Below are positions 1 to 34,751 of a stretch of 34,892 nt of DNA, piece after piece. This DNA is from a virus. The notes under the pieces were generated by a model that saw only the letters and a program-made list of their open reading frames with translations, searched no databases and had not been told where the DNA came from. Numbering within the stretch: position 1 is the first letter of the stretch; every line of letters starts with the position of its first letter. The stretch is from positions 1 through 34,892 of IMG/VR virus record IMGVR_UViG_3300045999_012972, one strand, 5' to 3'. Made by a program: the position numbers and the translations under genes.

Positions 1-204
1 GAGTGATGACAGACAGGAGAAATGGGAACTCCCTGAACTAGGCTGAGCAGGGCTTAGGAACCTTTAACCCACAGAGGAGAATCCGCCCCGCAGGGGCGTT
101 CCGGGCGAGGTTGCCCCGAGTTTGGGAGGTTGCCTCGATTCCGGGCACGCTCGCCAAAAGTTTGGTAACTTACAGGAGGCTTCGCGGCGCACGCTAGGAC
201 CGGC
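1..204. other. Left phage end, non-coding
   Basis: No gene is seen here. It holds a possible terminal TG (4-5), a short perfect hairpin CGCCCC-GCA-GGGGCG (84-98) without a T-run, and two related repeats: a degenerate AGTTTGGGAGGTT copy (119-131) and the perfect CCAAAAGTTTGGTAACTT copy (154-171) that recurs inverted at the other end. The layout resembles the multiple transposase-binding sites at Mu ends. The early operon runs toward this end and must stop here or just beyond. Confidence 0.5.
152..171 (+). repeat. Left terminal inverted repeat, candidate transposase binding site
   Basis: The sequence CGCCAAAAGTTTGGTAACTT matches 20 of 20 bases with the reverse complement of 34732-34751. It starts 151 bp from the left window edge; its partner ends 141 bp from the right edge. 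A diverged copy (AGTTTGG then TT) lies just outside it at about 119-131. Mu-like transposases bind several such sites at each end, so this is a good candidate for an internal binding site rather than the extreme end. Confidence 0.7.
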
Positions 205-217
205 TTAAGGGCGCCTT
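204..217. promoter_or_regulatory. TAAGG-N3-CCTT palindrome
   Basis: CTTAAGG-GCG-CCTT overlaps the stop codon of the last early gene. It shares the pattern TAAGG, three bases, CCTT with 5950-5962 and 13197-13213. It may be a regulatory site, but chance is possible. Confidence 0.2.
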
Positions 218-726
218 GGGGAACGTTCAGCTACCACCTCGGTCATGCTCGGCGGCGGCGCCGCGCGGAGGCCAAGGCCGGATACCAGGACATCCATCGT
301 GGAGGCGATATCGGCGCCCGAGCGTTTCGCGACCATCCGGATCTCGTCGGCGTTGACGGGGACGTATCGCGAAACCGCGGCGCGAAAATAGGGGTAAAGG
401 TCGCGGACCTGGCCGGCAGCTTGAGCGGCCGCGATCGGACGCAAAAAATCCTTCACCAGCTGGCCAAGGCGCTCTTCCTGGAGGAGCCACCCGCGCTGGT
501 AGAGGTGGCGGGCGATGGTCTGGAGGAGGGCGACGCAGTTTTCGACCTCGCGCTCGCGGCGTTGTTCGGCATCGGGCCATTGCAGGGTGGCCAGGAGCGT
601 GGCGCGGCAACGGCGACGCCAGCGGCGGAGGGCGGTCGCGCGGTCGATGCCCGCGCTGGCCTGTAGGAAGTGGGCTTCTCGGGCCTCTTCCGCTTCTCGG
701 AGCTGAAGCTGACGATCGAGGGCCAT
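205..726 (-). CDS. Hypothetical protein, last gene of the early operon
   Basis: A 173-residue protein of unknown function, rich in Arg, Ala and Leu, with long helical stretches in the first 100 residues (RDRQLQLREAEEAREA-type heptads) and no signal peptide or membrane segment. I chose the start at 726 because the upstream reading frame ends at 731 with the junction TGAGCCGATGG. This closely resembles TGAGCCATG junctions between other early genes (5136, 7248, 11311, 11925), so it looks like a genuine phage early gene. Its position at the end of the early operon is where Mu encodes Mor, but no helix-turn-helix typical of Mor is visible. GC is as high as in the phage core, unlike the neighbouring cassettes. 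Confidence 0.6.
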   Translation of the reverse strand: MALDRQLQLREAEEAREAHFLQASAGIDRATALRRWRRRCRATLLATLQWPDAEQRREREVENCVALLQTIARHLYQRGWLLQEERLGQLVKDFLRPIAAAQAAGQVRDLYPYFRAAVSRYVPVNADEIRMVAKRSGADIASTMDVLVSGLGLRAAPPPSMTEVVAERSPRRP

Positions 727-730
727 CGGC

Positions 731-1072
731 TCAGGCCGCCGCGAGCGCGTTGACGAATAACCGGGTCGAGGTAGCGCGCACATGCGTGTAAATCATCGTC
801 GTGCTCACGTCCGAGTGGCCGAGCAACTCCTGCACGTCGCGGATGTTCGCGCCTGCCTCCAACAAATGCGTGGCGAAGCAGTGGCGGAGCGTGTGGGGCG
901 TGACGCGCTTCAGAATATTTGCCTCTTTCGCGGCATCCTTCACGGCCACCTGAATCCATGAATCCGACGTCCACCAGCGGGCGCCGTCGCGGATGCAGGT
1001 GGAGGGGAAAACAAACTGCCAGGCGATGTCGCGCACCGCGCTCGGCATCTTTTTCGCGAGAAGGCCGGGCAT
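731..1072 (-). pseudogene. intI: Integron integrase (IntI) C-terminal fragment
   Basis: This frame encodes the C-terminal third of an integron-type tyrosine recombinase. From an in-frame ATG at 1072 it gives 113 residues. Visible catalytic residues are H60 and R63 (HTLRH), H86 (LLGHSDV) and nucleophile Y95 (TTMIYTHV); the segment [17 protein letters not shown] fits the pre-catalytic region of IntI. The N-terminal half, including the first catalytic Arg and the DNA-binding domain, is missing, so it should not be an active integrase alone. The previous cassette gene stops 4 bases before the ATG, so it could be translated by coupling. It lies at the distal end of the cassette array and in the same direction, not the usual intI position. 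A XerC/D-like gene is a less likely alternative. Confidence 0.8.
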
Positions 1073-1076
1073 GGGC

Positions 1077-1523
1077 CTACTGTCTGTTCGATCCGCCCGG
1101 AGCATTCTTGGTTTTCCAACGCGCAAGAAGCCGCTCGCGCGTAAGCACATCTCGCTCGGCGGGCGGGAGCTTTTCATTTTTCTCCCAGTATTCCCATAGC
1201 CGCTTGCTCACGCCTTCCGCGTTCGCGGCCTGCTCAATCGTGAGCCCCGCCGCGATGCGGGCTTTGCGCAGCTCGCCGCCGTAGGTGCCTGCGTGGTGAT
1301 ACTTCGCCTCGTATTCCGCTATCTGCGCGGGCGTGGCGCTAGGGTGTAGCGAGCGCCAGAAGGCTGGCGTGTGCATCTCCATTGACTCGCGCCGCGCTGC
1401 GCGGGCCTTTGCGGAGAGCGACTCGGCACGCTTCAGCGCGGCGCCCTTTGGCGATTTCGCGAACGCTCGTGCAGCGGCTTTTTCTAGCCGTGTAGCTTTT
1501 GCGTGGCTGGATTCGCTTTTCAT
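1077..1523 (-). CDS. Cassette-borne XRE-family HTH protein, possible antitoxin
   Basis: A 148-residue protein. The first 50 residues are basic and Ala-rich ([19 protein letters not shown]). Residues about 84-125 form a Cro/C1-type helix-turn-helix ([34 protein letters not shown]). It overlaps the upstream gene by 4 bases and ends just before the IntI fragment. It is probably the regulator that binds the twin palindromes upstream of the pair. The order small unknown protein then HTH protein recalls HigBA-type toxin-antitoxin operons, which often sit in integron arrays with their own promoters, but the partner has no recognised toxin fold. No attC follows it; that end has been lost at the IntI junction. 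Confidence 0.6.
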
Positions 1524-1831
1524 TTCGCGGCCTCCAGGTAGGCGGCGAGATCCATCTCTCCGGCCCGCTTCGCGAAGGCGATGGCCTCCGCCTTGATTTC
1601 CGGGGTGCAGATCACCGCGCCGGAGGCGTCGGCGACCTTGGCCACGGACTTAAGCGCGGGGCGACCCATTCCCTCGGGGGCCCATACCCAGCCAGCTTCC
1701 AGAGCCGTGCTGGCGCGGGCGGCGCGGACGGCTTCGCGGGGATTCGCTCCATGGGTGGGGTGAAGGCGCTCGATGAAGAGGCCGGTGTCGCCGTTGAAGG
1801 ATTCGAGGATGGTGAGGATTGAAGTTTTCAC
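1520..1831 (-). CDS. Cassette-borne hypothetical protein, partner of the HTH gene
   Basis: A 103-residue protein with a GTG start at 1831, nine bases after the nearer operator palindrome. I see no recognised family; the segment GDTGLFIERLHPTHGANPREAVRAAR and a mixed alpha/beta look are the only features. It overlaps the HTH gene by 4 bases (ATGA), so the two are co-translated. Its own control region, unlike the other cassettes, suggests it must be expressed independently of array position, as is typical for toxin-antitoxin cassettes. The toxin role is inference from context only. Confidence 0.55.
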   Translation of the reverse strand: MKTSILTILESFNGDTGLFIERLHPTHGANPREAVRAARASTALEAGWVWAPEGMGRPALKSVAKVADASGAVICTPEIKAEAIAFAKRAGEMDLAAYLEAAK

Positions 1832-1840
1832 GATTTACAG

Positions 1841-1891
1841 TCCGCACTGTTTTGCGGATTCAGTCAAGTAGTTTCCGCACTATTTTGCGGA
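1841..1891 (-). promoter_or_regulatory. Promoter/operator region with twin 18-bp palindromes
   Basis: Two palindromes of form TCCGCA-N6-TGCGGA lie at 1841-1858 and 1874-1891. Their centres are 33 bp apart, about three helical turns, so a dimeric regulator would meet both on one face of the DNA. A TTGACT hexamer (minus strand, 1867-1862) between them could be a -35 element, but no good -10 at standard spacing is evident. The region lies directly upstream of the 1831-1077 gene pair, whose second gene encodes an HTH protein, so autoregulation is likely. Confidence 0.65.
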
Positions 1892-1917
1892 TTTCTTTCG
1901 GGAGTCAGGGAGCGCCG

Positions 1918-1975
1918 ATCGAACCACGGGCCAGAGCCAACGCGCTACGCGCGCGGCTCATCCCGACCGTTAGCC
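1918..1975 (-). other. attC recombination site 1 (58 bp)
   Basis: The outer cores are GGCTAAC (complement of 1969-1975) and GTTCGAT (complement of 1918-1924). Between them an imperfect inverted repeat pairs GAGCC with GGCTC and GGG with CCC around a short terminal loop. The preceding cassette gene stops inside it (1945). It is the shortest site of the array. Confidence 0.7.
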
Positions 1976-2523
1976 AGAAGAAGAGACTTCGCGTGCGCCA
2001 TCCACTCACGCCATGTGGCCTCCACGCGGGCGCGGGCTTCCTTCGGGCTCGCGAAGTCGATGATGTAATACGTTCCGCCGAACCAGACGCGAAAGCCTTT
2101 GTGCCACAGCGTGCCATCCGGCATCCGATGCTTTCGGCCGGTGCTGTAGTAGTAGTTGCCGATGTGGACGCCGTCGGCGTTGGCCTGCCAGTGCACGCCT
2201 GTTTTGTTCGCCGTCCAGATTACCGGCGCGTTACCCGCTGCCTCAATCCAGCGGAGAGCGTAGGCTTCGCCAGCCGCCCGCGCATCCTCAGCGGTTGCAT
2301 ACTCCACGCTTTGGTCGATGGCCGGTAGCGGCAGATGCGCGTGGTCGGTGTCGTAGCCGCCCGCGTTGTAGAGGTGATAGGGCGGATGGTTGGCGCAGTT
2401 TTTACCGGCGTATCCCACGAGGTCGATGAGGTTGAGCGAGAGTCGCTCGTGATGCGGCCCGACACTATGCCAGCGCGGCGCGGTGTCGCGGAGGTCGCGG
2501 AAGAGATAGAGTTTAGTATCCAT
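1945..2523 (-). CDS. Gene-cassette hypothetical protein (192 aa)
   Basis: A soluble protein of unknown function, rich in Tyr, Trp and His (GGYDTDHAHLPLP; HIGNYYYSTGRKHRMPDGTLWHKGFRVW). No signal peptide or membrane segment is visible. The ATG lies 14 bases after the GTTAGCC core of the preceding attC, with a T-rich leader and no Shine-Dalgarno sequence, and the last codons run into the next attC; both are cassette hallmarks. Expression presumably depends on read-through from upstream. I do not recognise the family. Confidence 0.65.
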   Translation of the reverse strand: MDTKLYLFRDLRDTAPRWHSVGPHHERLSLNLIDLVGYAGKNCANHPPYHLYNAGGYDTDHAHLPLPAIDQSVEYATAEDARAAGEAYALRWIEAAGNAPVIWTANKTGVHWQANADGVHIGNYYYSTGRKHRMPDGTLWHKGFRVWFGGTYYIIDFASPKEARARVEATWREWMAHAKSLLLANGRDEPRA

Positions 2524-2537
2524 AAAAAGAAGACGGA

Positions 2538-2645
2538 GGCTAACAATGCGAGGGAGCCAATGCGGTTGCTTGTCACAGATCGGGCGCGGGAGCCGTCCGA
2601 TCGCGTTGCTCGCTGGCCCGCATCGGCTCCTCTTGTGCGTTAGCC
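2538..2645 (-). other. attC recombination site 2 (108 bp)
   Basis: Cores GGCTAAC and GTTAGCC bound a long imperfect palindrome. On the + strand GAGGgAGCCaATGCGG faces CCGCATcGGCTCCTC, leaving an unpaired G that is seen at the same place in sites 3, 4 and 5, like the extrahelical bases of known attC sites. It is nearly the same as site 6 (4146-4253) in length and sequence. Confidence 0.88.
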
Positions 2646-2920
2646 ATATCGAACCGCGAAGCCGCCGCGATAAGCTCCTCCGAGCCCGGCGACAGTCCAG
2701 TCTCTTTCAAGAGCTGCCATGCGCCGCGAAAGATTCTCTTGTCGCTCTCCCACGCAAACGTCAGTCGGGCGATTTCGTCCGCCGCCACCTCGAACAGTTG
2801 TTTGCGGCGTCGGTCGTCGTCGTGAACCGTTTGATGCGCGTCGGCCTCTGCTTCACACGCGGCAGCAATTTCATGCGGCTCACCCACGAGCCACGTTTCG
2901 TTTTCGGAGTCCCATTTCAT
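2573..2920 (-). CDS. Gene-cassette hypothetical protein (115 aa)
   Basis: An acidic, helical protein (EIAAACEAEADAHQTVHDDD) of unknown function. The ATG is 11 bases past the GTTAGCC core of attC 3, and about the last 24 residues are encoded within attC 2, so the C-terminus is probably incidental. The leader is T-rich (TCTTTTTTATT) with no Shine-Dalgarno sequence. No known domain is recognised. Confidence 0.6.
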   Translation of the reverse strand: MKWDSENETWLVGEPHEIAAACEAEADAHQTVHDDDRRRKQLFEVAADEIARLTFAWESDKRIFRGAWQLLKETGLSPGSEELIAAASRFDMANAQEEPMRASEQRDRTAPAPDL

Positions 2921-2931
2921 AATAAAAAAGA

Positions 2932-3014
2932 GGCTAACAAATAGATGGAGCGAACGCGATTAGCTGTCACGGGAAGTGTCGCCACTAGGCGCGTCGCTCA
3001 TCAGGACGTTAGGC
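2932..3014 (-). other. attC recombination site 3 (83 bp)
   Basis: Cores GGCTAAC (2932-2938) and GTTAGGC (3008-3014) on the + strand. The inner arms GATGgAGCGAaCGCG and CGCGTCGCTCATC pair except for an extra G and an extra A, the same bulge pattern as in sites 4 and 5. The small upstream gene stops in the core at 3009. Confidence 0.88.
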
Positions 3015-3179
3015 TTTGCGCTTTGGATTTCCGCCGCGCCACCACTCTTTCGGTTTTCGGGGCAGCACGATTTCAGGAGGTGGCGGCACGTATTTAATTA
3101 GATGCACTTGGTGAGGCTGCCGAAGCCGGCTTTCCGGTATCGTCGCCGTATCGTTTTCGTCAGGTTTATTGGGAGCCAT
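3009..3179 (-). CDS. Gene-cassette small protein (56 aa)
   Basis: A short open frame from ATG 3179 to a TAA that lies in the attC core at 3009-3011. The product is basic and proline-rich, with YVPPPPEIVLPRKPKEWWRGG in the second half and no signal peptide. The ATG lies 13 bases after the GTTAGGC core of attC 4. It fills the whole space between two attC sites and its stop position matches that of the 3275-3499 gene, which supports it as a real cassette gene. Function unknown; it may be a short, mostly disordered peptide. Confidence 0.6.
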   Translation of the reverse strand: MAPNKPDENDTATIPESRLRQPHQVHLIKYVPPPPEIVLPRKPKEWWRGGNPKRKA

Positions 3180-3192
3180 AAATTGCGATTGA

Positions 3193-3280
3193 GCCTAACA
3201 ATGCGGTGCTGCGAACGCGGGTGTCTGTCACGCGGCGTGCCTAGCTCTGTCCTCCCGCGTCGCAGACCTTTCCGTTAGGC
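3193..3280 (-). other. attC recombination site 4 (88 bp)
   Basis: Cores GCCTAAC (3193-3199) and GTTAGGC (3274-3280) on the + strand. Arms GGTgCTGCGAaCGCGGG and CCCGCGTCGCAGACC pair apart from an extra G and an extra A. The upstream gene stops at 3275 inside the core. Confidence 0.88.
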
Positions 3281-3499
3281 AGACGGAATAAAACCGCCTT
3301 TCACCTCACGCGATTCAGCGTGATAAGTCTCAGTCACCGAATCCTTCCCGCCGATGCAGGGCAGTTCGACCACGACACGCACACGCTTTCCGCCTGCGGG
3401 CGGTTCGCCGTGTGGCTCGGGCGACAAACAAGGCAGGCAATCCCAGTCCTGCCAGTTTTGGTATAGATCAACGTAATACTCTACTTTTTTGGTTTTCAT
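3275..3499 (-). CDS. Gene-cassette hypothetical protein (74 aa)
   Basis: A small protein starting MKTKKVEYYVDLYQNWQ, with a CLPC pair (WDCLPCLSPEPHGE) and a beta-rich second half (KRVRVVVELPCIGG). I chose the ATG at 3499 rather than 3562 because the longer frame would begin inside attC 5. Its TAA lies in the attC 4 core. The CxxC might bind metal or form a disulphide; this is not proven. No family recognised. Confidence 0.65.
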   Translation of the reverse strand: MKTKKVEYYVDLYQNWQDWDCLPCLSPEPHGEPPAGGKRVRVVVELPCIGGKDSVTETYHAESREVKGGFIPSA

Positions 3500-3523
3500 G
3501 GCGTTAGAAAAAATAAATACAGA

Positions 3524-3652
3524 GCCTAACAACGCACTGGAGCCAACACGGCCAGCTATCACGCTGACTGCCTACGCGAGTTTGTGTGAGTTAGTTTTGC
3601 TGGCGAAAGCGTTTAGGTGTTCGGGCCGTGCGGCTCAGCTTCGTCGTTAGCC
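3524..3652 (-). other. attC recombination site 5 (129 bp)
   Basis: Cores GCCTAAC (3524-3530) and GTTAGCC (3646-3652) on the + strand. Read on the minus strand, CTGAGCCGCACGGCC in one arm matches CTGgAGCCaACACGGCC in the other with the same bulges as sites 3 and 4. The upstream gene runs about 12 codons into it. A degenerate GTTTAGG at 3611-3617 is an inner alternative edge, but it gives poorer pairing. Confidence 0.8.
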
Positions 3653-3906
3653 AAGACAGCAGCGATGCGGTCGCGGAGGGTGATTCGGGTCTCGGTCGTG
3701 CTTCGGGACCAGTAGGCAAGGTCTTTCACGGCTTCGCGAAGACGGACCAGTTCGCGCTCGGTTTCATCATGTTTACGCAGCAGGTTTACCGCGTCGTCTA
3801 TCGTTGCGCCGATCTCGGCAGGGGGTGGCATTTCTAGCGTTTCGTCTCCGCGTCTCCATGAGTTGAAGTTCGCGAGGGCGAGAAGTGTTTCGGTGGCTTT
3901 GCTCAT
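3613..3906 (-). CDS. Gene-cassette hypothetical protein (97 aa)
   Basis: A helical protein with a charged middle (DDAVNLLRKHDETERELVRLREAVKDLAYWSRS), likely a short coiled coil. It is the second gene of a two-gene cassette: its ATG lies one base after the TGA of the gene before it (3908). The last dozen residues are encoded inside attC 5. No family recognised. A two-gene cassette without its own promoter suggests joint function and read-through expression. Confidence 0.6.
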   Translation of the reverse strand: MSKATETLLALANFNSWRRGDETLEMPPPAEIGATIDDAVNLLRKHDETERELVRLREAVKDLAYWSRSTTETRITLRDRIAAVLANDEAEPHGPNT

Positions 3907-3907
3907 T

Positions 3908-4135
3908 TCAGAAGTATTTCGCCACGCCCGCCAGCTCGGCGGAAATCTGCCGGACCTTTGCGCGCTCTTTCAGCATCACCGATTGTCGCTGCGCGATGTT
4001 TTGGATCGCCTCTTGTGGGCTCTCCCCAATGCCGACGATTTCGCCGCCGATCTTCGCGCGGTATTCAGATTCGGCCTCGGCGAAGCCGCCGACGTATTCG
4101 ATTTCGATAAGTTCGAGTGCCTTTTCGTATTTCAT
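3908..4135 (-). CDS. Gene-cassette hypothetical protein (75 aa), first in the array
   Basis: A 75-residue protein starting MKYEKALELIEIEYVGGFAEAESEYRAKIGGEIVGIGESPQEAIQNIAQ, where the pattern 'GIGESPQEAIQNI' recalls small HicB-like domains. HicB identity is weak: the protein is shorter than most HicB antitoxins and no HicA is seen beside it. The ATG lies 10 bases after the GTTAGCC core of attC 6, with a T-rich leader. It shares its cassette with the 3613-3906 gene and is the cassette gene closest to the phage promoter. Confidence 0.6.
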   Translation of the reverse strand: MKYEKALELIEIEYVGGFAEAESEYRAKIGGEIVGIGESPQEAIQNIAQRQSVMLKERAKVRQISAELAGVAKYF

Positions 4136-4145
4136 AAAAAAAGAG

Positions 4146-4253
4146 GGCTAACCAAGCGAGGGAGCCAATGCGGTTGCGTGTCACGCCGACTGCGCGGGAG
4201 CAGTCCGACCGCGGGGCTCTCTGGCCCGCATCGGCTCCTCTTGTGCGTTCAGC
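4146..4253 (-). other. attC recombination site 6 (108 bp) at the phage/array junction
   Basis: Cores GGCTAAC (4146-4152) and GTTCAGC (4247-4253) on the + strand. The arms GAGGGAGCCAATGCGG and CCCGCATCGGCTCCTC are the same as in site 2, and most of the rest matches too. The right core differs from GTTAGCC by an inserted C, so the minus strand reads GGCTGAAC; the TGA in it is the stop codon of the phage gene 4611-4249. This makes it the outer edge of the array. Confidence 0.85.
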
Positions 4254-4611
4254 CTCGTGCGTAGCGGTGGAGGCGGCGGCGGATGGTGCCGGCCCGCAGG
4301 AGCATCTTGCGGCCTTGGCTCTCTAGGCGGCTCGCGGCCCGGTCGGCGTCGCCCAGGCTGGTCTCGCCGTCGAAGCGCCGATACCCCGGACACCCCGGCC
4401 CACTCAGGATCTCACCATCACTATGCTCGGCCATAGCCCGCAGCTTGCGCTCGTCGATGCCCAGCGCCGCCTCGATCTCCCGCGCCTTCACCCACCCCCG
4501 GCCGCGCAGCCAGGTAGTGAGGGCCGCCACCTCTTCCGCGCTCACTTCAGGCGCGGCTTCGCGGAGGCCTAGCTCCGGCGTCTCAGGCATCGTGTGCGCG
4601 TGCGTTTTCAT
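4249..4611 (-). CDS. Winged-helix-like phage early protein
   Basis: A 120-residue protein. Residues about 25-75 (VAALTTWLRGRGWVKAREIEAALGIDERKLRAMAEHSDGEILSGPGCPGY) look like a winged helix, often found in phage replication or regulatory proteins. It overlaps the spacing of the previous gene (start 4611, previous stop 4615), so it is part of the early operon, and it has phage-like GC. Its stop codon lies in the attC 6 core, so the original C-terminus may have been replaced when the array was joined. Function unknown. Confidence 0.65.
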   Translation of the reverse strand: MKTHAHTMPETPELGLREAAPEVSAEEVAALTTWLRGRGWVKAREIEAALGIDERKLRAMAEHSDGEILSGPGCPGYRRFDGETSLGDADRAASRLESQGRKMLLRAGTIRRRLHRYARG

Positions 4612-4614
4612 CGG

Positions 4615-5136
4615 TCAAAATTCTCCGTCCCACTCGATGGGATTTTCGGCCGGCACCGGCTCGGTGGGTGCGGGCTTCGCCGCCGGCGCCGGGCCCGGCT
4701 TGCCTCCCATCTCGCCGATCCGTTTCCGCAGGATGAAGGACAGCTTCCGCAGGGTGTCGTCGTCGACGAGCCCCACGGCCTTGCCGCCGAGCCAGCGCTT
4801 GAAATAGGTGCTCAAGCCGGCCAGCCCGCCCTTGATGCCAGCGGCTTCGCCCAAGCGCTCGATCTCGGCGAGCATCGCCGCCCGCCTTGCCTCGGGCTCG
4901 TCCTCGGCGTGGAGCTGCGCGCCGAGATCGCCCGGCCTGGAAAAGCTGCGGAAGCGGGCCAGCACGCGCGTCAGCTCGGCGTTGGTCAGCTTTTTCGAGG
5001 ACTTGGTAAACCCTCCGATGGCGTCGGCCTGGAGTGCGTGGCGCACTTCGTCGTCGCACGCGCGGCCGAGCGCCTGGAGCGCCTCTTTGCAGGCGCGCCA
5101 CTCGCGCCAGTAGAGCGTGATCTGCGCTTTGGTCAT
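4615..5136 (-). CDS. GemA-like early protein (tentative)
   Basis: A 173-residue protein beginning MTKAQITLYWREWRACKEAL, an opening seen in GemA/gp16-like (DUF1018) proteins of Mu-like phages, with a later motif DDDTLRKLSFILRKRIGEM. The C-terminal 30 residues are Pro/Ala-rich and likely disordered. The position after Gam in the early operon fits gp16 of Mu, which affects host gene expression and supercoiling. Similarity is by pattern only; an uncharacterised phage protein is possible. Confidence 0.5.
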   Translation of the reverse strand: MTKAQITLYWREWRACKEALQALGRACDDEVRHALQADAIGGFTKSSKKLTNAELTRVLARFRSFSRPGDLGAQLHAEDEPEARRAAMLAEIERLGEAAGIKGGLAGLSTYFKRWLGGKAVGLVDDDTLRKLSFILRKRIGEMGGKPGPAPAAKPAPTEPVPAENPIEWDGEF

Positions 5137-5139
5137 GGC

Positions 5140-5400
5140 TCAGCGGCTGGCCAGGCGCACGATCTCGGCGAGCACCGCATCGCGGTCCTCGATGGTCGGG
5201 AAAAGCACGTCGCCTTCGCGGCGGCCCTCCAGGGCGAGCGGCATCCAGGTGCCGGTGTTGATCGACTGCGCCTCGATCCAGGGACCTACACCCGCGCGCA
5301 GGGCGTTGCCGTCGCGGCGCACGATGGCCGCGACCTGGCCGATCCAGTCGAGCGTGAGGCCGCCGAGGGTTGGGGCGGATTCTGTGGCGGGCGCGTTCAT
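5140..5400 (-). CDS. Small early protein (86 aa)
   Basis: A hypothetical protein (MNAPATESAPTLGGLTLDWIGQ) with a predicted mixed fold and no recognised domain. Its ATG overlaps the Gam stop (ATGA) and its TGA sits 3 bases before the next ATG (TGAGCCATG), so translation is coupled to both neighbours. Confidence 0.6.
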   Translation of the reverse strand: MNAPATESAPTLGGLTLDWIGQVAAIVRRDGNALRAGVGPWIEAQSINTGTWMPLALEGRREGDVLFPTIEDRDAVLAEIVRLASR

Positions 5401-5936
5401 TTTGCGGCGGCCGCGGCAAGCATCTCGGTCTTGGGCTCGATAAAAAAGGCCTCATCCTGGACCACGCGCAGGCCGATGCCGCGCAGGCCTGCCTCGTCGA
5501 TCTCGCCGCGCTGGTGCGCGCTGTGCAGGCCGGCCTTGTCAGGCTCGACTTTGGTGCGCAGGAACTTCGCCAGCGGCCCCACGAGCTTTTCCTGCACGCG
5601 GTCCCAGGTCCAGCCACTGAGGGTCTTGAGCGTGGGGTTGCCGGTGCGAAAGCCGAGCGAGCCGTGGAGCAGGTCGAGACTTTTTCGTGCGCCGAACTCT
5701 GCGGGGTTGGCCTCGGCCCAGACTTGGAGCCGGTCGGTGGCGGCCTCGACGAGGATCTCGAGGCTGTCGATCTGCTTTTCGTAGCGTTGGCGGATCTCGG
5801 TGAGTTTGCCCTCCAGCTCAGCGGTGAGCTGGTCGCGCTCGGCGGTGGCGCGGGCGAGTTCGCCGAGCACACGCTCGGCATCGGCGCGAGAGTTGAGGGC
5901 CGGCTCGGTGCGGCGGATTCTGGTTTTTTTGCTCAT
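5397..5936 (-). CDS. gam: Gam-like host-nuclease inhibitor
   Basis: A 179-residue protein, close to the 174 of Mu Gam. A long coiled coil spans about residues 18-75 (ERVLGELARATAERDQLTAELEGKLTEIRQRYEKQ), followed by the compact part ESLDLLHGSLGFRTGNPTLKTL-like, which matches the 'G.l.fR.....l' core of the Gam family (PF07352). Gam binds the ends of linear DNA and shields them from host exonucleases. It lies in the early operon between small phage genes, as in Mu. A palindrome (5950-5962) lies in its leader. Confidence 0.8.
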   Translation of the reverse strand: MSKKTRIRRTEPALNSRADAERVLGELARATAERDQLTAELEGKLTEIRQRYEKQIDSLEILVEAATDRLQVWAEANPAEFGARKSLDLLHGSLGFRTGNPTLKTLSGWTWDRVQEKLVGPLAKFLRTKVEPDKAGLHSAHQRGEIDEAGLRGIGLRVVQDEAFFIEPKTEMLAAAAAK

Positions 5937-5949
5937 GTGTGGTGTGGGT

Positions 5950-5962
5950 TAAGGTAGCCTTA
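5950..5962. promoter_or_regulatory. TAAGG-N3-CCTTA palindrome in the gam leader
   Basis: TAAGG-TAG-CCTTA lies 14-26 bases upstream of the gam start. It overlaps the stop codon of the gene before gam. It has the same half-sites and 3-base spacer as 13197-13213. It may be an operator or an RNA hairpin that affects gam translation. Confidence 0.3.
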
Positions 5963-6160
5963 GGGGAGGGGAGCGAGGGCCTTGGCCATGGCCTGCTCCT
6001 CGTGGTGGTCGGCGAGTTCGAGCAGCGCCTGGCGCTCGTCGCGCAGGCGATACACGGTCACCGTGTCGTCGCGCTCGGCGGCGAGCTGGATCTGCACGTC
6101 GATGACCTCGGCGTTGGCCCGGCAGCGGCCGGCATAGAGGCGGTGTTGGACGGCTGTCAT
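5960..6160 (-). CDS. Small early protein (66 aa)
   Basis: A helical protein, MTAVQHRLYAGRCRANAEVIDVQIQLAAERDDTV and onward, with an amphipathic pattern but no family recognised. It starts in an ATGA overlap with the gene before it. The coding is supported by tight packing and phage-like composition. Confidence 0.5.
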   Translation of the reverse strand: MTAVQHRLYAGRCRANAEVIDVQIQLAAERDDTVTVYRLRDERQALLELADHHEEQAMAKALAPLP

Positions 6161-6426
6161 AGGGTGGGGGTCTCGGTGTCGGTGCCAGCGCTGAGGTGTT
6201 GGCCAGCCTCGCCGATGACGGGGAGGCCGAGAGCGAAGCGCGCGGCGGCGAGGCAGGCGGGGTAAGAGGCGAAGGGCTCGGAGGGCTTGGCGTTGGGCTC
6301 GTCGATCATCCAGGCGTGGCGGCCGGCGAGGAGCGTGATGATGAGGTCGCGCCCGAGGTGGTAGGAGCGGAGGCGCCAGGTGATGGTCGGCGCGGTGCGC
6401 GCGTCGGGGCAGGGTGTGGCGTTCAT
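6157..6426 (-). CDS. Small early protein (89 aa)
   Basis: A hypothetical protein that opens MNATPCPDARTAPTITWRLR. The segment SYHLGRDLIITLLAGRHAWMIDEPNAKPSEPFASYPACLAAARFALG looks like a small beta-sheet plus helix domain. It overlaps both neighbours by 4 bases (ATGA), so it is a coupled early gene. No known function. Confidence 0.5.
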   Translation of the reverse strand: MNATPCPDARTAPTITWRLRSYHLGRDLIITLLAGRHAWMIDEPNAKPSEPFASYPACLAAARFALGLPVIGEAGQHLSAGTDTETPTL

Positions 6427-6827
6427 CGGGCGAGGGGGGAGCCGATGGTGGCGAGGTCGAGGGCCGGGGGCAGGGAGGCCCAGGCGTAGACGCCGGAGGC
6501 CTCGGTCCCTCCGGCCCAGAAAAAGGCCTGGCGGCTGGGCAACTGCTCGAGGCTGCCCTCGCCCACGACGGGCTCGCCGTCGCCGGCCTCGCCGGAGCGC
6601 CCGGCGAGGAAGAGCGGCTGGCCGAGCGGAGGCACCTGGTCGAGCAGGCGGCGCCAGTGCAGGAGGTGCGGAGCGGCGTGGCGCGCGAGGATCTGCGCGG
6701 CCTCGCCCGGCGAGACGTCGCGCGGCCCGTGGTAGTTGGGCGCGTCGGCGTAGTGGCGGGTGATGCGCAGGGCGTCGACGGTCTGGTAGCCGGCGGCGAG
6801 CGCGGTGAGGAGAGGGGTGGTGTTCAC
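6423..6827 (-). CDS. Early hypothetical protein (134 aa), GTG start
   Basis: The protein starts at a GTG overlapping the preceding stop (GTGA) and reads VNTTPLLTALAAGYQTVDALRITRHYAD. It contains PRDVSPGEAAQILARHAAPHLLHWRRLLDQ and ends ALDLATIGSPLAR. No domain is recognised. I preferred this start because longer frames run back through the upstream membrane-protein gene. It belongs to the early operon downstream of MuB. Confidence 0.5.
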   Translation of the reverse strand: MNTTPLLTALAAGYQTVDALRITRHYADAPNYHGPRDVSPGEAAQILARHAAPHLLHWRRLLDQVPPLGQPLFLAGRSGEAGDGEPVVGEGSLEQLPSRQAFFWAGGTEASGVYAWASLPPALDLATIGSPLAR

Positions 6828-7006
6828 AGGCGGACGAAAAAAAAGAGGGTGGCGGTGCAGAAGCCGGCGGCGAAGGCCACGGCGACCACGAGGGCGCGTT
6901 GCGGGGCATCGAGAGCGGCGTCGACCACGCGCGCGGCGCCCGCAGCGAGGAGGCCGATCCCGGCGATGGCGGCGCAGACGGCGCCGGCGAGAGCGAAGGA
7001 GTCCAT
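6824..7006 (-). CDS. Small membrane protein (60 aa)
   Basis: Two hydrophobic segments make up most of the protein: residues 4-26 (FALAGAVCAAIAGIGLLAAGAA) and about 38-58 (ALVVAVAFAAGFCTATLFFFV), separated by a short charged turn. It is likely an inner-membrane hairpin. A holin-like or superinfection-exclusion role is possible, but its place in the early operon argues against a lysis holin. Function unknown. Confidence 0.5.
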   Translation of the reverse strand: MDSFALAGAVCAAIAGIGLLAAGAARVVDAALDAPQRALVVAVAFAAGFCTATLFFFVRL

Positions 7007-7023
7007 GGTGGAGGGGCGGGGGA

Positions 7024-7248
7024 TCAGGCGGCGGAGGCTGCGAGGGCTTTGCCGGCATGGTGCCAGACCTGCTCCTCGGCGCGGCAGCGGTGGGCGGCGA
7101 CGAGGGCGGCGGCCTCGTCGAGATCGAGCGCGAAGCAGTCGTTGCCCCGGCGGAGGGAGAGGCGGCGGCGGAGATCGGCGGCGAGCTTGCGGTCGGCGGC
7201 GGTCGGCGTGCTGCCGCGGGTGGGCAGGAGGGAGCGGTTGATGGACAT
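7024..7248 (-). CDS. Small early protein (74 aa)
   Basis: A hypothetical helical protein (ADRKLAADLRRRLSLRRGNDCFALDLDEAAALVAAHRCRAEE). It follows the MuB-like gene with the TGAGCCATG junction. Its place directly after B recalls small early genes of Mu-like phages. No domain recognised. Confidence 0.5.
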   Translation of the reverse strand: MSINRSLLPTRGSTPTAADRKLAADLRRRLSLRRGNDCFALDLDEAAALVAAHRCRAEEQVWHHAGKALAASAA

Positions 7249-7251
7249 GGC

Positions 7252-8205
7252 TCAGCTGCGGAGGGTTTCGACGCGGGCGATGGCGGCGGCGATCTGCTCG
7301 ACGCCGCTGCCGTGTTCTCGCGCGGCCTCGCGGCAGATGGCGTCGAGGGTGTTGAAGAGGCCGAAGCGGTTGGCCGCCTCACGGCAGAGCCTCACGACCT
7401 CCTTCTCGTCTCCGTTTAAGCCGTCGTAGCCGGGCAGCCGGGCGGCGAGGAACAGGCGGCAGTCGGCATCGCCCACCTGCCGGAGCGCGACCTTGGCAAA
7501 GGTGCGATTGCGCAGCTGCTGACACTCCGCCCACGCGGCCTTCTGCATGTCGTCCCAGAGCTTGGGCATGGCGAGCATGACGACGCGGGTCTGCGACTTG
7601 TTGAGGATGAGCTTGAGGAGGTTGAGCGCGGCGCGGCCGCTGTAGTGGGCCTCATCCACGACCAGCACGCGCGGGCTGCGGGCCAGGGAGGCGACGAGCT
7701 GCGTCTCGGCCTTACGCACGGTGGCGGCGATGTCGGTCTCGCCGAGGGCGGCGAGGCAGGCGCAGATGGCGGCGAGGTAGTTGTCGCGCCAGGCTTCCGT
7801 GGCCTCGACGATGACGACGGTCTCGCCGAGGCGGGCGCGGAGCATCTTGGCGAGCCGGCTCTTGCCGCCACCGGTATCGGCGAGAAAGGCGACGAGGCGA
7901 TTCCGCTCCTCGACGGCGCATTCGCGCACGCCCCGGATCACGGCCTTCGCGTCGGAGAGTTCCAGGAGTTCGGAGCCGGCGGGCTGGCCGGCGGCCTCGT
8001 CTTCGAGCAGGCGCAGGGCGGCCTCGGCCTTCTCGAGCCAAGGTTCGACGTTGCCGGGATAGGTCCCGCTTTTCAGCGTAGACCAGGTAGCGTCGGAGCA
8101 GCGCAGATAGCGCTGGGCAAAGGCGCGATTTTTGAGGCCGAGCCGCTCCTGGTGCGAGACGAGGGCAAGGATCGCGGGGTGGGATTTCGTTTCGTGGCTT
8201 TCCAT
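7252..8205 (-). CDS. MuB-like transposition target-selection ATPase
   Basis: A 317-residue AAA+ ATPase. The first 50 residues hold a helix-turn-helix-like region (NRAFAQRYLRCSDATWSTLKSG), as in MuB. Walker A is FLADTGGGKS at 107-116 and Walker B is VVDEAH at 182-187. MuB proteins are about 310 residues, bind DNA as ATP-dependent filaments, choose target DNA for the transposase and activate strand transfer. It lies directly downstream of the transposase, the A-B order of Mu, with a 49-base gap. Confidence 0.9.
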   Translation of the reverse strand: MESHETKSHPAILALVSHQERLGLKNRAFAQRYLRCSDATWSTLKSGTYPGNVEPWLEKAEAALRLLEDEAAGQPAGSELLELSDAKAVIRGVRECAVEERNRLVAFLADTGGGKSRLAKMLRARLGETVVIVEATEAWRDNYLAAICACLAALGETDIAATVRKAETQLVASLARSPRVLVVDEAHYSGRAALNLLKLILNKSQTRVVMLAMPKLWDDMQKAAWAECQQLRNRTFAKVALRQVGDADCRLFLAARLPGYDGLNGDEKEVVRLCREAANRFGLFNTLDAICREAAREHGSGVEQIAAAIARVETLRS

Positions 8206-8254
8206 GTGGTGTAGTGTGACGGTTTGTGTCGCAGGAAAATGGATACGGCACGGG

Positions 8255-10216
8255 CTAGTCGGCCTCGGGCTCGGCGCGCGCGTTGAGGATCTCAGCGGCG
8301 GTGAGTGTGGGGCGGGCCTTGGCCTTGGCCGCCGCGCCCTCCTCGACCATGGCGCGGCCGGCGCGGGCGGCGTCGAGGACGGCGCGGTTGTGAGCGCGTC
8401 GCTCCTCGTGGGCGGCGCGGTCGGGGGCGTGGGTCTCGTCGACCTGGGCGACCAGCGGGGCGCGGGCCTGCATCACCTCGCCGAGGGCGCGCTTCTGCGC
8501 CTCCTCGTCCATCACCCCGGCCGCGAGCACGCGGTGCATCGCGCCGAGGCGGCGGCCGTCGCAGTCGAAGAGGTAGGCGATGGTGAGGTCGTGGGGCAGG
8601 AGCTTGACCGAGTAGGGCGCGCCCTCGCCGCGCTCGAGCTGCGGGATATCCGTGGAGCGGAAGAGCCACTCCACGCCGTCCTGCGTCCAGCTGATCGTGT
8701 AGGGCGCGGGGCGGCGCACGCGCTTGATCGTGCGGGCGAGGAGCGGCAGAAGCGCGTCGTCGGGCACGATGGTGAAGGGCGGCTGGGCGCGGAGCAGGCG
8801 GGCGAGGCGCTCCAGCGGCGACTCCATGCGGCGGGTCAGGCGGGCCTCGCGGGCCACGGCAGCGGGGTAGCGGGCCAGCTCGGCGATGGGGCGCCAGGCG
8901 AGGTCGGAGGGCAGGCGGAAGAGTTGCAGCTTTTCGAAGCCGGAGAGGTTGTGCCGGGTGCGGGCGTTGAGCTCGGCGAAGAGGCGGTCGAGCGTGGCGA
9001 TGGCCTCGTCGTGCCCGAGCACCGGCAGCCGAAGCTGGGCGAGGATCTCGGCCGGCAGGTCCTCGCACTCGGCGAGCAGCTCGTGGGCCTCGCGCTTCAC
9101 CTCGCGCAGCTCGGCCGGGGCGAGGTCGTAGCGGGCGCCGGTCTGGCCGGGCAGGCTGGCGGCCTGGTTGTGGAAGGTCTTGAAGAAGGATTCGAGCACG
9201 CCCTTGACGTCCCACGGGGTGCCGTGGCGCTGCTCGTGGCCGCCGGGCAGGCGGCGGGTCACCATGTGGGTGTAGTCGATTTTTAGATACGCGCCGCCGA
9301 GGGTGCGCAGGTAGTTGGCCGCCGGCTCGCGGAAGGTCGCCTTGGCGTTCTCGACCTTCAGTGTCATCGGGTAGGCGGAGGGGATGCCGTAGCGGCGGAG
9401 CAGATTGCCCGCGAGGATCTGCATGTGCTCTTCGAGCAGCTCGGCGCGCTTGCCGTCCTCGTCCGGCACGGCCGCGAGCGAGACCCAGTCGAGGACCACG
9501 CGGGTGGCGACATCCATCGCGACGAGGAGCCAGAGCTCGACCGGGCGGTCGTGCTCGGGGTGCCAGATCACCCAGTCACAGCGCACGTCGTCGAAGACCA
9601 CCATCTCCAGCGGGCGGAGTTCGCGGTAGTCGTTGCGCTTCTGAGGCAGCTGGCTGTGCGCGGCGAAGTAGCCGCCGCGAGCGAGGGAGAGGGCGGCCTC
9701 GCCGGGGAGCAGGCGCGAGAGGTTGCGCGCGGAGAAGCCGGAGGGCAGGAACCAGTCGGGGCAGCGCTCGGGCGTGGGCTCGTCGGGGTGCTGCGCGGCC
9801 CAGAGCGTGCGCCAGTTGCCGTAGCCGGGCACGTCCTGGCCGGCGAGCCAGGCACCGCGCACGCGCTCGATCTCGACCGAGGACACGCGCTTGTTGTTGC
9901 CGACCAGGCGGGCGAGGTGGCGGGTAAATTCCTCGGGCTTGGCGCGCTTTTCCGAGCGGTAATCGAGCAGCAGGGCGCCGGGGCCCTGCTTCCGGTAGTC
10001 GCGGAAGAGGTCGAGCAGGCGCTTGGCGGAGAAGCCCCGGCCGAAGCGGGCCGTAAGCTCGGCCCCGAGCCGCTCGGCCGTGCTCTCCCAGGCGGAGCGC
10101 GGGGCCTGGGAGAGCACCGCGATGGCCTGGATGCGCGCGTCGATCTTCTCCTGGTGCTCGGGCTTGGCCGAGTTGTAGCGGGCGCGGAGGGCGGTGGGCA
10201 GATCGAGGAGAGTCAT
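8255..10216 (-). CDS. MuA-like DDE transposase
   Basis: A 653-residue protein, close to MuA (663). N-terminal DNA-binding helices (about 10-180) include motifs such as LLDLFRDYRKQGPGALLLDYR and SAWESTAERLGAEL. The RNase H-like core starts at VVFDDVRCDW (first Asp 209 or 210), continues with LLVAMDVATRVVLDW, and has the third acidic residue at E342 (VKGVLESFFKTFHNQ). At the second acidic position the protein has Glu (E289, LKVENAKATF) where Asp is usual. A basic Arg/Ala-rich tail (about 560-640) probably contacts the MuB-like partner. I chose the ATG at 10216; the longer frame runs into the upstream gene. It cuts and joins phage ends during integration and replicative transposition. Confidence 0.9.
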   Translation of the reverse strand: MTLLDLPTALRARYNSAKPEHQEKIDARIQAIAVLSQAPRSAWESTAERLGAELTARFGRGFSAKRLLDLFRDYRKQGPGALLLDYRSEKRAKPEEFTRHLARLVGNNKRVSSVEIERVRGAWLAGQDVPGYGNWRTLWAAQHPDEPTPERCPDWFLPSGFSARNLSRLLPGEAALSLARGGYFAAHSQLPQKRNDYRELRPLEMVVFDDVRCDWVIWHPEHDRPVELWLLVAMDVATRVVLDWVSLAAVPDEDGKRAELLEEHMQILAGNLLRRYGIPSAYPMTLKVENAKATFREPAANYLRTLGGAYLKIDYTHMVTRRLPGGHEQRHGTPWDVKGVLESFFKTFHNQAASLPGQTGARYDLAPAELREVKREAHELLAECEDLPAEILAQLRLPVLGHDEAIATLDRLFAELNARTRHNLSGFEKLQLFRLPSDLAWRPIAELARYPAAVAREARLTRRMESPLERLARLLRAQPPFTIVPDDALLPLLARTIKRVRRPAPYTISWTQDGVEWLFRSTDIPQLERGEGAPYSVKLLPHDLTIAYLFDCDGRRLGAMHRVLAAGVMDEEAQKRALGEVMQARAPLVAQVDETHAPDRAAHEERRAHNRAVLDAARAGRAMVEEGAAAKAKARPTLTAAEILNARAEPEAD

Positions 10217-10284
10217 CGGAGAGGGAGTGAGGGAGTAAGGGAGTGAGGCCAGGCGCCCGCAAAGTAGTGGGCGGGCGGATACCC
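10217..10284 (-). repeat. Transposase leader with 8-bp tandem repeats
   Basis: Just upstream of the transposase ATG are three tandem 8-bp units on the + strand (GGGAGTGA, GGGAGTAA, GGGAGTGA; 10223-10246). The mRNA therefore has a pyrimidine-rich CUCCC-type leader and no Shine-Dalgarno sequence. The repeat might tune translation or be a protein-binding tract; the function is unknown. Confidence 0.4.
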
Positions 10285-11025
10285 TCAGGCGGCGTGTTCG
10301 TGGCGGTGGCGGAGGAGCCGCTCGTGGAACTTGGCCGCGAGGTCGCGCAGCAGGGCGTCGGCGCGCTCGGCGGCGTCGAGGGTGAGGTCGTGCCAGGTGA
10401 TTTCGGCGAGCAGGGTCTTCTCGGCGGCGGTGAGCGCGGCGGCCACGGCGTCGCGGGCGGCGGCCTCGGCCTCCTCGGTGGTGGGCGCGGGGCCCGCGGG
10501 CGCATCGCCGGCCCCGAGGGCGGGCGCGGCCGGCGGGCGGGCTCCCCCCTGCTTGATCACCTGGTGGCGGTGCATCAGCTCGGTGAGGCCGCACTCGCCG
10601 ACGAAGCGATCGAGCTTGGCGAGGATGGCGCGGCCGTCGTTATCCTGCGCCTCAAGGTCGAGGGTGAGCTGGTTGGCGCCGATGATCTCGGGCAGGAGGA
10701 GCTTGGCCGAGCGGGAGAACTTGGCCGCAAGCTGCATGTAGTTGCGCGCGGTCCGGACGCTTTTGCCGAGATGTTGCGCGGCCCATGCCTCAAACTCGCC
10801 GTGCGGGAGGGCGATGCGGACCTGGCTGAGGTAGATTCCGGCGAGAGTGGCCTTCATCGCGCGTTCCCGGCGGAGGCCGTCGACGTGCTGGAGCATCGCG
10901 AGGGCGCGCTTGCCAGAGGCCTCGGCGTCAAATCGGAAACTGTTTCCGATTTGGGCCGAATCGAGCTTGTCGAGGTCGACGGGTTTGGAGGGGCTGAGCA
11001 CGGGGGCGAGGTGGTCGGTGGGCAT
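10285..11025 (-). CDS. DUF3102-like early DNA-associated protein
   Basis: A 246-residue protein. Residues about 70-110 (SQVRIALPHGEFEAWAAQHLGKSVRTARNYMQLAAKF) match the DUF3102 pattern, 'lphG.f..Wl......s.rtA.rymrlA', common in phages and plasmids. A Pro/Ala-rich linker (about 160-185) and a helical C-terminal part follow. It precedes the transposase in the early operon. DUF3102 proteins are probably DNA-binding, but their role is not known. Confidence 0.7.
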   Translation of the reverse strand: MPTDHLAPVLSPSKPVDLDKLDSAQIGNSFRFDAEASGKRALAMLQHVDGLRRERAMKATLAGIYLSQVRIALPHGEFEAWAAQHLGKSVRTARNYMQLAAKFSRSAKLLLPEIIGANQLTLDLEAQDNDGRAILAKLDRFVGECGLTELMHRHQVIKQGGARPPAAPALGAGDAPAGPAPTTEEAEAAARDAVAAALTAAEKTLLAEITWHDLTLDAAERADALLRDLAAKFHERLLRHRHEHAA

Positions 11026-11050
11026 GGGTGAGAGAGGGTTTGGGAAGGGT

Positions 11051-11311
11051 TTAGGCGGGGTTTGAGAAGCCCTTGGGGGCGACGCGGAGGAACCAGGCGG
11101 CGGGCTCGGCGTCGGCGTGGGCGATGAGGTCGTGCAGGGTGGGCGGCTGGTCGGCCTGCACGGCGGCGGCGTAGTGCGCGCCCTCAGTGGTCCAGAGCTC
11201 GGCGTGGTAGAGGCCGGGCGTCATGCCGGGGCGGTGGCGGGCCCGCGCCCGGTCGAAGGTCACGCCGCTGCCCGGAGGCAGGTCGGCGATGGTGGTGAAG
11301 GTGGTGATCAT
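11051..11311 (-). CDS. Small early protein (86 aa)
   Basis: A hypothetical protein (MITTFTTIADLPPGSGVTFDRARARHRPGMTPGLYHAELW) that looks beta-rich, with no recognised domain. It lies between a DNA-binding protein and the DUF3102-like gene in the early operon. Confidence 0.5.
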   Translation of the reverse strand: MITTFTTIADLPPGSGVTFDRARARHRPGMTPGLYHAELWTTEGAHYAAAVQADQPPTLHDLIAHADAEPAAWFLRVAPKGFSNPA

Positions 11312-11342
11312 GGCTCAGGCGGCGGGTTTGGAGGCCTCGGCT

Positions 11343-11717
11343 TCAGCCGCGCCGGCTGGCGGAGGCGCGGAGGGTGGTGAGGTGGCGGAGGGCGCGGTCG
11401 AGGGCGGCGGGGCCCCACGTATCGAAAAGGGCGAGGGCGCGGCGCTCGTGCTCGGCGGGCTCCATGGTGCGGGTGCGGAGCAGGTAGAGGCGGAGGTCGT
11501 CGGCGGTGACCCACTCGATCTTTATCCGAGCCTCGGCACCGGGCGCCGCCGCGAAGGGCAGGCGGTGGCCGCCGAGCTGCCCGCTCTCCAGCGCCGCGCG
11601 GATGGTGCGGATCGAGACCGGCTCGCCATCGGCGCCGAGGATGCGGCAGAGTTCGTGCGTGCCGAACTTAAGCCGGCCGGCGGGCACGAGGGGGTCGATG
11701 AGGAGCTGCTCGGACAT
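11343..11717 (-). CDS. Small DNA-binding-like early protein (124 aa)
   Basis: The N-terminal half (GRLKFGTHELCRILGADGEPVSIRTIRAALESGQLGGHRLPFAAA) has the shape of an excisionase/MerR-type winged helix: helix-turn-helix followed by 'l.g.rlp'. The C-terminal part is helical (ERRALALFDTWGPAALDRALRHLTTL). It is the third gene of the early operon. It may regulate early transcription or help the transposition complex. Function inferred from fold pattern only. Confidence 0.5.
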   Translation of the reverse strand: MSEQLLIDPLVPAGRLKFGTHELCRILGADGEPVSIRTIRAALESGQLGGHRLPFAAAPGAEARIKIEWVTADDLRLYLLRTRTMEPAEHERRALALFDTWGPAALDRALRHLTTLRASASRRG

Positions 11718-11721
11718 GGCT

Positions 11722-11925
11722 TTAGCGTTGAGCGGTGGCGGAGCCGGCGGGGCGGGCGCGCCGGATTTCTGCGAGGAAGCGGGCGGCCTTGCCCCCTCGG
11801 GCGTGGTAACGCACGGTGTCGCGGTGCACGCCCCAGGCGCGGGCGGTGCGGCTGATGTCGCCGCGGCGGCGTAGCAGCGCGGGGATGCTGGCGATCTGCT
11901 CGGGGGTGAGGACTTGGCGGGGCAT
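11722..11925 (-). CDS. Small HTH protein (67 aa)
   Basis: The protein is essentially one helix-turn-helix: LTPEQIASIPALLRRRGDISRTARAWGVHRDTVRYHARG, the pattern found in resolvase- or transposase-type HTH domains, followed by a basic tail. It starts right after the TGA of the Ner-like gene (TGAGCCATG). Probably an early regulator. The exact role is unknown. Confidence 0.6.
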   Translation of the reverse strand: MPRQVLTPEQIASIPALLRRRGDISRTARAWGVHRDTVRYHARGGKAARFLAEIRRARPAGSATAQR

Positions 11926-11928
11926 GGC

Positions 11929-12105
11929 TCAGGCGGCGCGGGTGAGGCGAGCGTAGGCGGTGGAGAGGCGCTTGCTCTGCCGCTTGCCGGTTAGGACCAG
12001 GAAGAGGTGGGTGCGAGTCACCCCGAGGGCCTCGGCATGCTCGGTGATGCCGGGGAACTTTGGAGCGTTTGAGCGCGGATGGGGGTTTTTACCGGTCTTT
12101 GGCAT
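11929..12105 (-). CDS. Ner/Cro-like small HTH regulator (58 aa), first early gene
   Basis: A 58-residue basic protein. Residues about 17-45 (KFPGITEHAEALGVTRTHLFLVLTGKRQSKR) form a Cro-type helix-turn-helix. It is the first gene of the leftward early operon and faces the repressor gene across a 45-base gap, the position and size of Mu Ner (75 aa), which shuts off early and repressor transcription. The ATG sits next to the GTTACG/CGTAAC inverted repeat. Assignment rests on size, fold and position. Confidence 0.7.
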   Translation of the reverse strand: MPKTGKNPHPRSNAPKFPGITEHAEALGVTRTHLFLVLTGKRQSKRLSTAYARLTRAA

Positions 12106-34731: not shown

Positions 34732-34751
34732 AAGTTACCAAACTTTTGGCG
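34732..34751 (-). repeat. Right terminal inverted repeat, candidate transposase binding site
   Basis: AAGTTACCAAACTTTTGGCG is the exact reverse complement of 152-171. It lies 141 bases from the right window edge. A related, weaker copy lies directly outside it, as on the left. Paired sites of this kind suit a MuA-like transposase. Confidence 0.7.

Follow-up and report, generated by a model that had tools for sequence, protein, structure and literature searches.

We conclude that the site at 4146-4254 is very probably the distal edge of an integron cassette array, borne by a Mu-like phage in an accessory slot of its early operon, with flipped cassettes that would be transcribed from this operon; both the insertion and the transcription are deduced here from sequence. 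The window, i.e. the whole stretch of DNA that we analyzed, corresponds to an entire IMG/VR virus record (34,892 bases), in which the cassette genes are antisense to their own attC sites and co-directional with the early operon.

Results

The phage genome and its accessory slot

Gene calls revealed a uniform leftward gene direction from ~205 to 12105, with structural genes, among them a Mu portal (PF06074, 7e-41) and a terminase, running rightward. Together with Gam (phrog_491 match, 2e-26) and a MuB-like ATPase (phrog_296 match, 3.5e-24), the window thus harbors the Mu-type portal, Gam and transposition ATPase that mark a Mu-like transposable phage (Table 1). The transposase-like protein (8255-10219) lacks a Pfam match, yet it has homologues among the early proteins of Mu-like relatives. 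Near the two ends we noticed inverted copies of the 20-bp repeat CGCCAAAAGTTTGGTAACTT, whose AGTTACCAAAC motif is also present at the end of the relative G001; these repeats are probably transposase end sites, and on that reading everything between them is counted as phage. Rfam and ARAGORN yielded no matches over the window. Single-protein scans of viral contigs with the 120-aa protein and the MuB-like protein revealed no relatives, and tblastn with the 120-aa protein and the transposase against GenBank phages gave no matches; relatives were obtained via the terminase and via an alignment of the 120-aa family.

Table 1. Positions of the junction, the cassettes and the phage features in the window
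Feature	Position	Strand	Remarks
Left-end 20-bp repeat	152-171	+	probable transposase end site
Last phage gene before left end	205-726	-	37-40% identity to genes of L217 and L212
Truncated integron integrase (intI), C-terminal third only	731-1075	-	TIGR02249 profile positions 194-303 of 315
Cassette c0, attC A0 (1918-1975)	1087-1969	+	operon 1831-1520 and 1523-1077 (HTH) antisense; A0 38.8 bits (covariance model)
Cassette c1, attC A5 (2538-2645)	1970-2639	+	192-aa gene 2523-1945 antisense; identical cassette in G043
Cassette c2, attC A4 (2932-3014)	2640-3008	+	gene 2920-2573 antisense; 74.6 bits (covariance model)
Cassette c3, attC A3 (3193-3280)	3009-3274	+	ORF ~3178-3010 (~56 aa) antisense, longest ORF on minus strand; 82.2 bits (covariance model)
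Cassette c4, attC A2 (3524-3652)	3275-3646	+	gene 3499-3275 antisense; 77.2 bits (covariance model)
Cassette c5, attC A1	3647-4247	+	genes 3906-3613 and 4135-3908 antisense; G^TT boundaries, minus-strand gene calls
Outermost attC A1	4146-4254	+	R'' GGCTAAC 4146-4152; crossover box G^TTCAGCC 4247-4254
120-aa phage protein, winged-helix-like	4249-4611	-	after GemA in early operon; native TGA stop kept
GemA	5136-4615	-	early operon
Gam	5936-5397	-	early operon
MuB-like protein	8205-7252	-	early operon
Transposase-like protein	10594-8255	-	homologous to early proteins of Mu-like relatives
Mu-like early operon	4615-11717	-	heads toward array; profile matches, homology, gene calls
Right-end inverted copy of the 20-bp repeat	34732-34751	-	same 20-bp repeat

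In L212, the homologue of the 205-726 gene comes immediately after that of the 120-aa gene, from which we conclude that the array, together with what is left of intI, occupies an accessory slot flanked by two phage genes; in L217 and L210, different cargo separates the 120-aa gene from the phage end. The intI remnant scored 131.5 bits vs. a TIGR02249 cut-off of 265, so the window does not hold a complete integron with a full-length intI and its integron-specific region. This fragment is 82% identical to the intact 312-aa phage intI of L212, and the two group at 100/100 support, apart from bacterial intI. Next to the remnant, where c0 adjoins the truncated intI, no attI was recognized by reading. 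The intI homology extends no further than 1075, leaving 11 bp to the G^TT at 1086, and we count this gap against our main reading.

The attC sites and their cassettes

A covariance model identified six attC sites, all on the plus strand, five of them complete and the sixth (A0) shorter; lying close together within 1918-4254, they qualify as a CALIN, for which at least two such sites are needed. This model was built from 14 attC sites that include those of the window, with the training orientation set by the analyst; A1, itself one of the 14, scored 73.1 bits (E 8e-13). A first strict scan missed most sites and was replaced by a regex and stem scan demanding the canonical core, which found A2-A5 in the window and nothing in 20 shuffles. 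As in ordinary integrons, all attC polarities in the window point away from the truncated intI. In contrast to canonical cassettes, where the ORF is sense to the attC, four cassettes here are clearly antisense, one is unclear but antisense, and none is sense.

At the left end of the array, c0 starts with G^TTCGATC (1086-1093) and the R'' of A0 itself reads GATCGAAC, which matches. A0 (1915-1978) had also been considered as an attI or a phage terminator; it is better explained as the attC of c0, given the match of its R'' GATCGAAC to the start GTTCGATC at 1086. The HTH gene of c0 has an HTH_31 match, and upstream of its operon, a palindrome like TCCGCAnnnTAGTGCGGA occurs twice at 1837-1891 and may serve as an autoregulatory operator. 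Separately, the first 45 residues of the cassette protein at 3613-3906 are ~42% identical to proteins in the Mu-like phages L215 and L219, hinting that some cassette genes may be of phage origin.

The junction with the 120-aa phage gene

Direct reading confirmed what the initial annotation had seen at the outer attC, namely GGCTGAAC on the minus strand (4254-4247) where the near-twin (83% identical over 108 bp) has GGCTAAC (2645-2639), with the TGA stop of the ORF 4611-4249 inside this box; the box begins at 4254, one base beyond the range 4146-4253 given then. It had been proposed that an extra base in the attC created this TGA and that the phage gene may have lost its native end. With an alignment as the query, we retrieved 25 viral-contig proteins related to the 120-aa protein. 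Wherever the C-terminus is intact, the stop positions differ by no more than a few residues and fall at the homologous residue, and the two closest relatives end in ..RCRIHRFAR and ..RRRLHRYART (L211) vs. ..RRRLHRYARG in the window, each followed by the stop; the exception is L212, whose homologue diverges after residue 93. An attC after the 120-aa gene was absent in all relatives compared. Because array-free relatives stop at the same residue, an outcome that the initial annotation itself had named as refuting it, the stop of the 120-aa gene is native, and neither its creation by an extra base nor the loss of a native end can be upheld.

Rather than a mutated half-site of the outer attC, GGCTGAAC is a crossover box that is half phage. 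When read in plus polarity, the attC contributes the G that closes cassette c5 and the phage contributes TTCAGCC, in which TCA is the native TGA as read on the other strand; the supposed extra base is accordingly phage sequence and entails no change in the attC. The crossover point falls between 4247 and 4248, 1 bp past the stop codon, which bears out the earlier view of a precise junction. Both the crossover at G^TT and the hybrid box formed with flanking DNA at 4247-4254 are what an attG-type site displays. The exact empty site was not found, with the best relatives being ~65-70% identical in protein.

Polarity of the attC sites

This interpretation depends on the polarity of the attC sites, for which flanking R boxes were dropped as an indicator since they match in both directions; R boxes being symmetric, the orientation must come from asymmetry. 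In the plus orientation, the extra base lies in the 5' inner arm in three of the four scanned sites, and the 5' end reads TAACAA. In bacterial integrons that served as control, 54 of the 55 model hits were on the strand opposite intI, which is the canonical layout, and the window, with attC sites on plus and intI on minus, shows the same relation. As the orientation of the model was set by the analyst, it is the bacterial control that carries the strand call.

Evidence independent of any model came from cassette c1, which is shared with G043 over 675 bp at 100% identity, with divergence exactly at plus-strand G^TT boxes on both sides. The shared unit comprises TTAGCC, the gene, A5 and the closing G; the attC flanking the gene at its other end differs between the two. 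These identity boundaries indicate that the exchanged unit is a plus-polarity cassette with an antisense gene. G043 is a 70-kb phage, unrelated to the window phage, that encodes an exonuclease and a DnaD-type loader. Its array, mostly of antisense cassettes and with two DNA methyltransferase genes, lies at the start of the record in this non-Mu phage (L107, G043:1-10000), with ~14 attC sites at 379-5879, and is cut by the contig start.

These findings bear on the reading closest to the initial annotation, in which conventional sense cassettes have the R'' of the outer attC illegitimately fused to a truncated phage gene, yielding a new stop, with the phage operon replacing attI and Pc. Gene starts that closely follow GTTAGCC boxes in the direction of reading, as they do in conventional cassettes, and the resemblance of GGCTGAAC to GGCTAAC plus one base would fit this scheme; however, the native end of the 120-aa gene, the polarity tests and a G043-shared unit that includes A5 while excluding the attC on the gene's other side all speak against it, and we regard it as unlikely. 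As to the proposed replacement of attI by the phage operon, the attI side is the intI side, i.e. the left end, which has been lost here, and complete relatives own an intI beside the array.

Arrays in relatives and in other phages

In L212, four attC matches are followed by intI, a GemA-like position, the 120-aa gene and the end gene; the intI of L212 scored 295 bits, above the TIGR02249 cut-off. G014 harbors two attC matches, methyltransferases, an IntI-like recombinase (185 bits, below that cut-off), GemA and the 120-aa gene. In both, attC polarity is opposite intI, with ORFs that run in the same direction as intI and the operon, and one relative has a complete integron with the same flipped layout as the window. 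Given that the record is a metagenomic contig, the junction might be an assembly chimera between a phage and an array contig, but the crossover falls exactly at G^TT, genes all run the same way from 205 to 12105, and in L212 and G014 the same early operon holds an array together with intI, which makes a chimera very improbable.

A search of viral contigs with the L212 intI retrieved 80 IMG/VR loci (L266-L345), and in nearly all of those with arrays the model hits were opposite intI. Several of these phages are not Mu-like, and tail fibre genes and a second phage integrase were seen beside intI. At L334 (9129-10830), unlike at the other phage loci, the array flanks intI on the opposite side and its attC sites share the intI strand, a Treponema-like layout. 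The intI of Thiobacillus denitrificans RG (L119) groups with the phage intI of L340, with genes beside attC co-directional with intI; this locus is possibly a prophage.

Cassette orientation in phage vs. bacterial arrays

Scoring the longest ORFs between sites with the same attC model, we counted 34 sense and 3 antisense in Verrucomicrobiota chromosomal arrays and 19 sense and 2 antisense in proteobacterial arrays, vs. ~20 antisense to 4 sense in phage arrays after removal of a duplicated contig. Antisense ORFs prevail in the window, L212, G014 and most of G043, with sense ORFs in Verrucomicrobiota (pooled Fisher p 7e-11, from simple gene calling in high-GC DNA and from partly related loci whose counts are non-independent). 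As the longest-ORF orientation was ambiguous in several intervals of G043 and other phages, codon-scored gene calls were added. Called genes beside attC run with intI in a ratio of 41 to 7 in phage loci and 12 to 38 in bacterial loci, with the codon-scored caller being unreliable in L266 (the contig of L212), where it called minus genes over a plus-strand methyltransferase and intI that have named homologues.

Mu-like phages insert almost at random and Verrucomicrobiota chromosomes carry the same attC family, as would suit a phage that had transposed into a host chromosomal integron, leaving host array DNA at the edge of the window; this is the least probable of the readings, as the inverted end repeats (152-171 and 34732-34751) lie outside the array, the phage gene 205-726, whose homologue adjoins the 120-aa gene in L212, lies beyond it, host arrays are sense whereas this one is antisense, and the intI fragment belongs to a phage lineage.

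Discussion

How a phage-borne array with flipped cassettes might arise can be outlined as follows: 1) an integron integrase would insert cassettes at a G^TT adjoining the stop codon of the phage gene, using phage DNA in an attG-like manner or as a former attI; 2) an intact phage intI would have stood at the downstream end of the array, as in relatives; 3) in the window, intI would have been cut to its C-terminal part when c0 joined its interior at another G^TT, with loss of the N-terminus and attI; and 4) the early operon, and not an integron Pc, would transcribe the flipped cassettes, as well as intI where it is intact. We surmise that cassettes with flipped genes would be kept because the early operon transcribes them.

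The initial annotation also had the phage early promoter reading straight into the cassettes. In agreement with this, the cassette genes run in the direction of the early operon, and we recognized no terminator on the minus strand from 4611 to 3453; across 700-6000, nothing resembling a sigma-70 promoter was seen. It is plausible, and fits the flipped cassettes, that the phage operon acts in place of Pc. There is, however, a T-rich leader on the gene side of each attC, reading GTTAGCCCTCTTTTTTTATG after A1, and with CTCTTTTTTTATG directly following the A1 hairpin, this hairpin and T-tract could act as a terminator or attenuate read-through, which we count against expression from the operon. 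Such leaders, at 4132-4147, 2921-2937 and 2524-2537, run from attC to the ATG that follows in the direction of the genes, and lack an obvious Shine-Dalgarno sequence.

More broadly, we lean toward the idea that phages own an integron class in which cassette genes are reversed with respect to attC and one operon transcribes both the array and intI. If true, cassettes would be split into phage and bacterial pools that share the same recombination chemistry, each being expressed in one setting only, and separate phage and host pools are therefore predicted. The rule that integron cassettes are oriented for expression from Pc would gain a phage mirror image, with the same polarity, flipped genes and a phage operon. 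Phages would also gain a route to swap early genes as exact units, several of which are DNA methyltransferases in relatives, and the odd attC core would be explained as a crossover with phage DNA.

Mu-like phages of the BcepMu/B3 type have Gam, GemA, a MuB-like protein and a Mu portal, with early genes leftward and late genes rightward. The window shares all of these features, but unlike that layout it carries an integron module in the distal accessory slot of the early operon. Within the literature that we searched, which was of limited coverage and without preprints, we did not find the flipped layout, lending weak support to its novelty. Phage integrons, both complete ones and CALINs, have already been published (Qi et al. 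2023, PMC9892861), with phage attC sites that are active with IntI1 (PMC9892861). Like the window and its relatives, those phages harbor attC arrays, integron integrases and DNA methyltransferase cassettes; in contrast to our array, in which the ORFs are antisense to attC throughout, their cassettes are typically oriented, with few mixed, and reversed, antisense or opposite cassettes go unmentioned in the text of PMC9892861, as does an integron lying within the early operon of a Mu-like phage. The insertion of cassettes outside integrons is known for attG sites (Loot et al. 2024, as cited in PMC12901181); from that citing account, these sites resemble the window in that a short site of the G^TT type links cassettes to DNA outside integrons and leaves a hybrid R box, and differ in that the window has an entire array, in a phage, with a remnant of intI at its side and a stop codon at the junction, where an integrase would have acted. 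Finally, the "reverse" integrons of Treponema have intI upstream and transcribed toward the array (PMC3607928) and share with the window intI and cassette genes that point the same way. The window does not belong to this type: its intI is downstream and reads away from the array, with the canonical relation between intI and attC preserved and the ORFs flipped.
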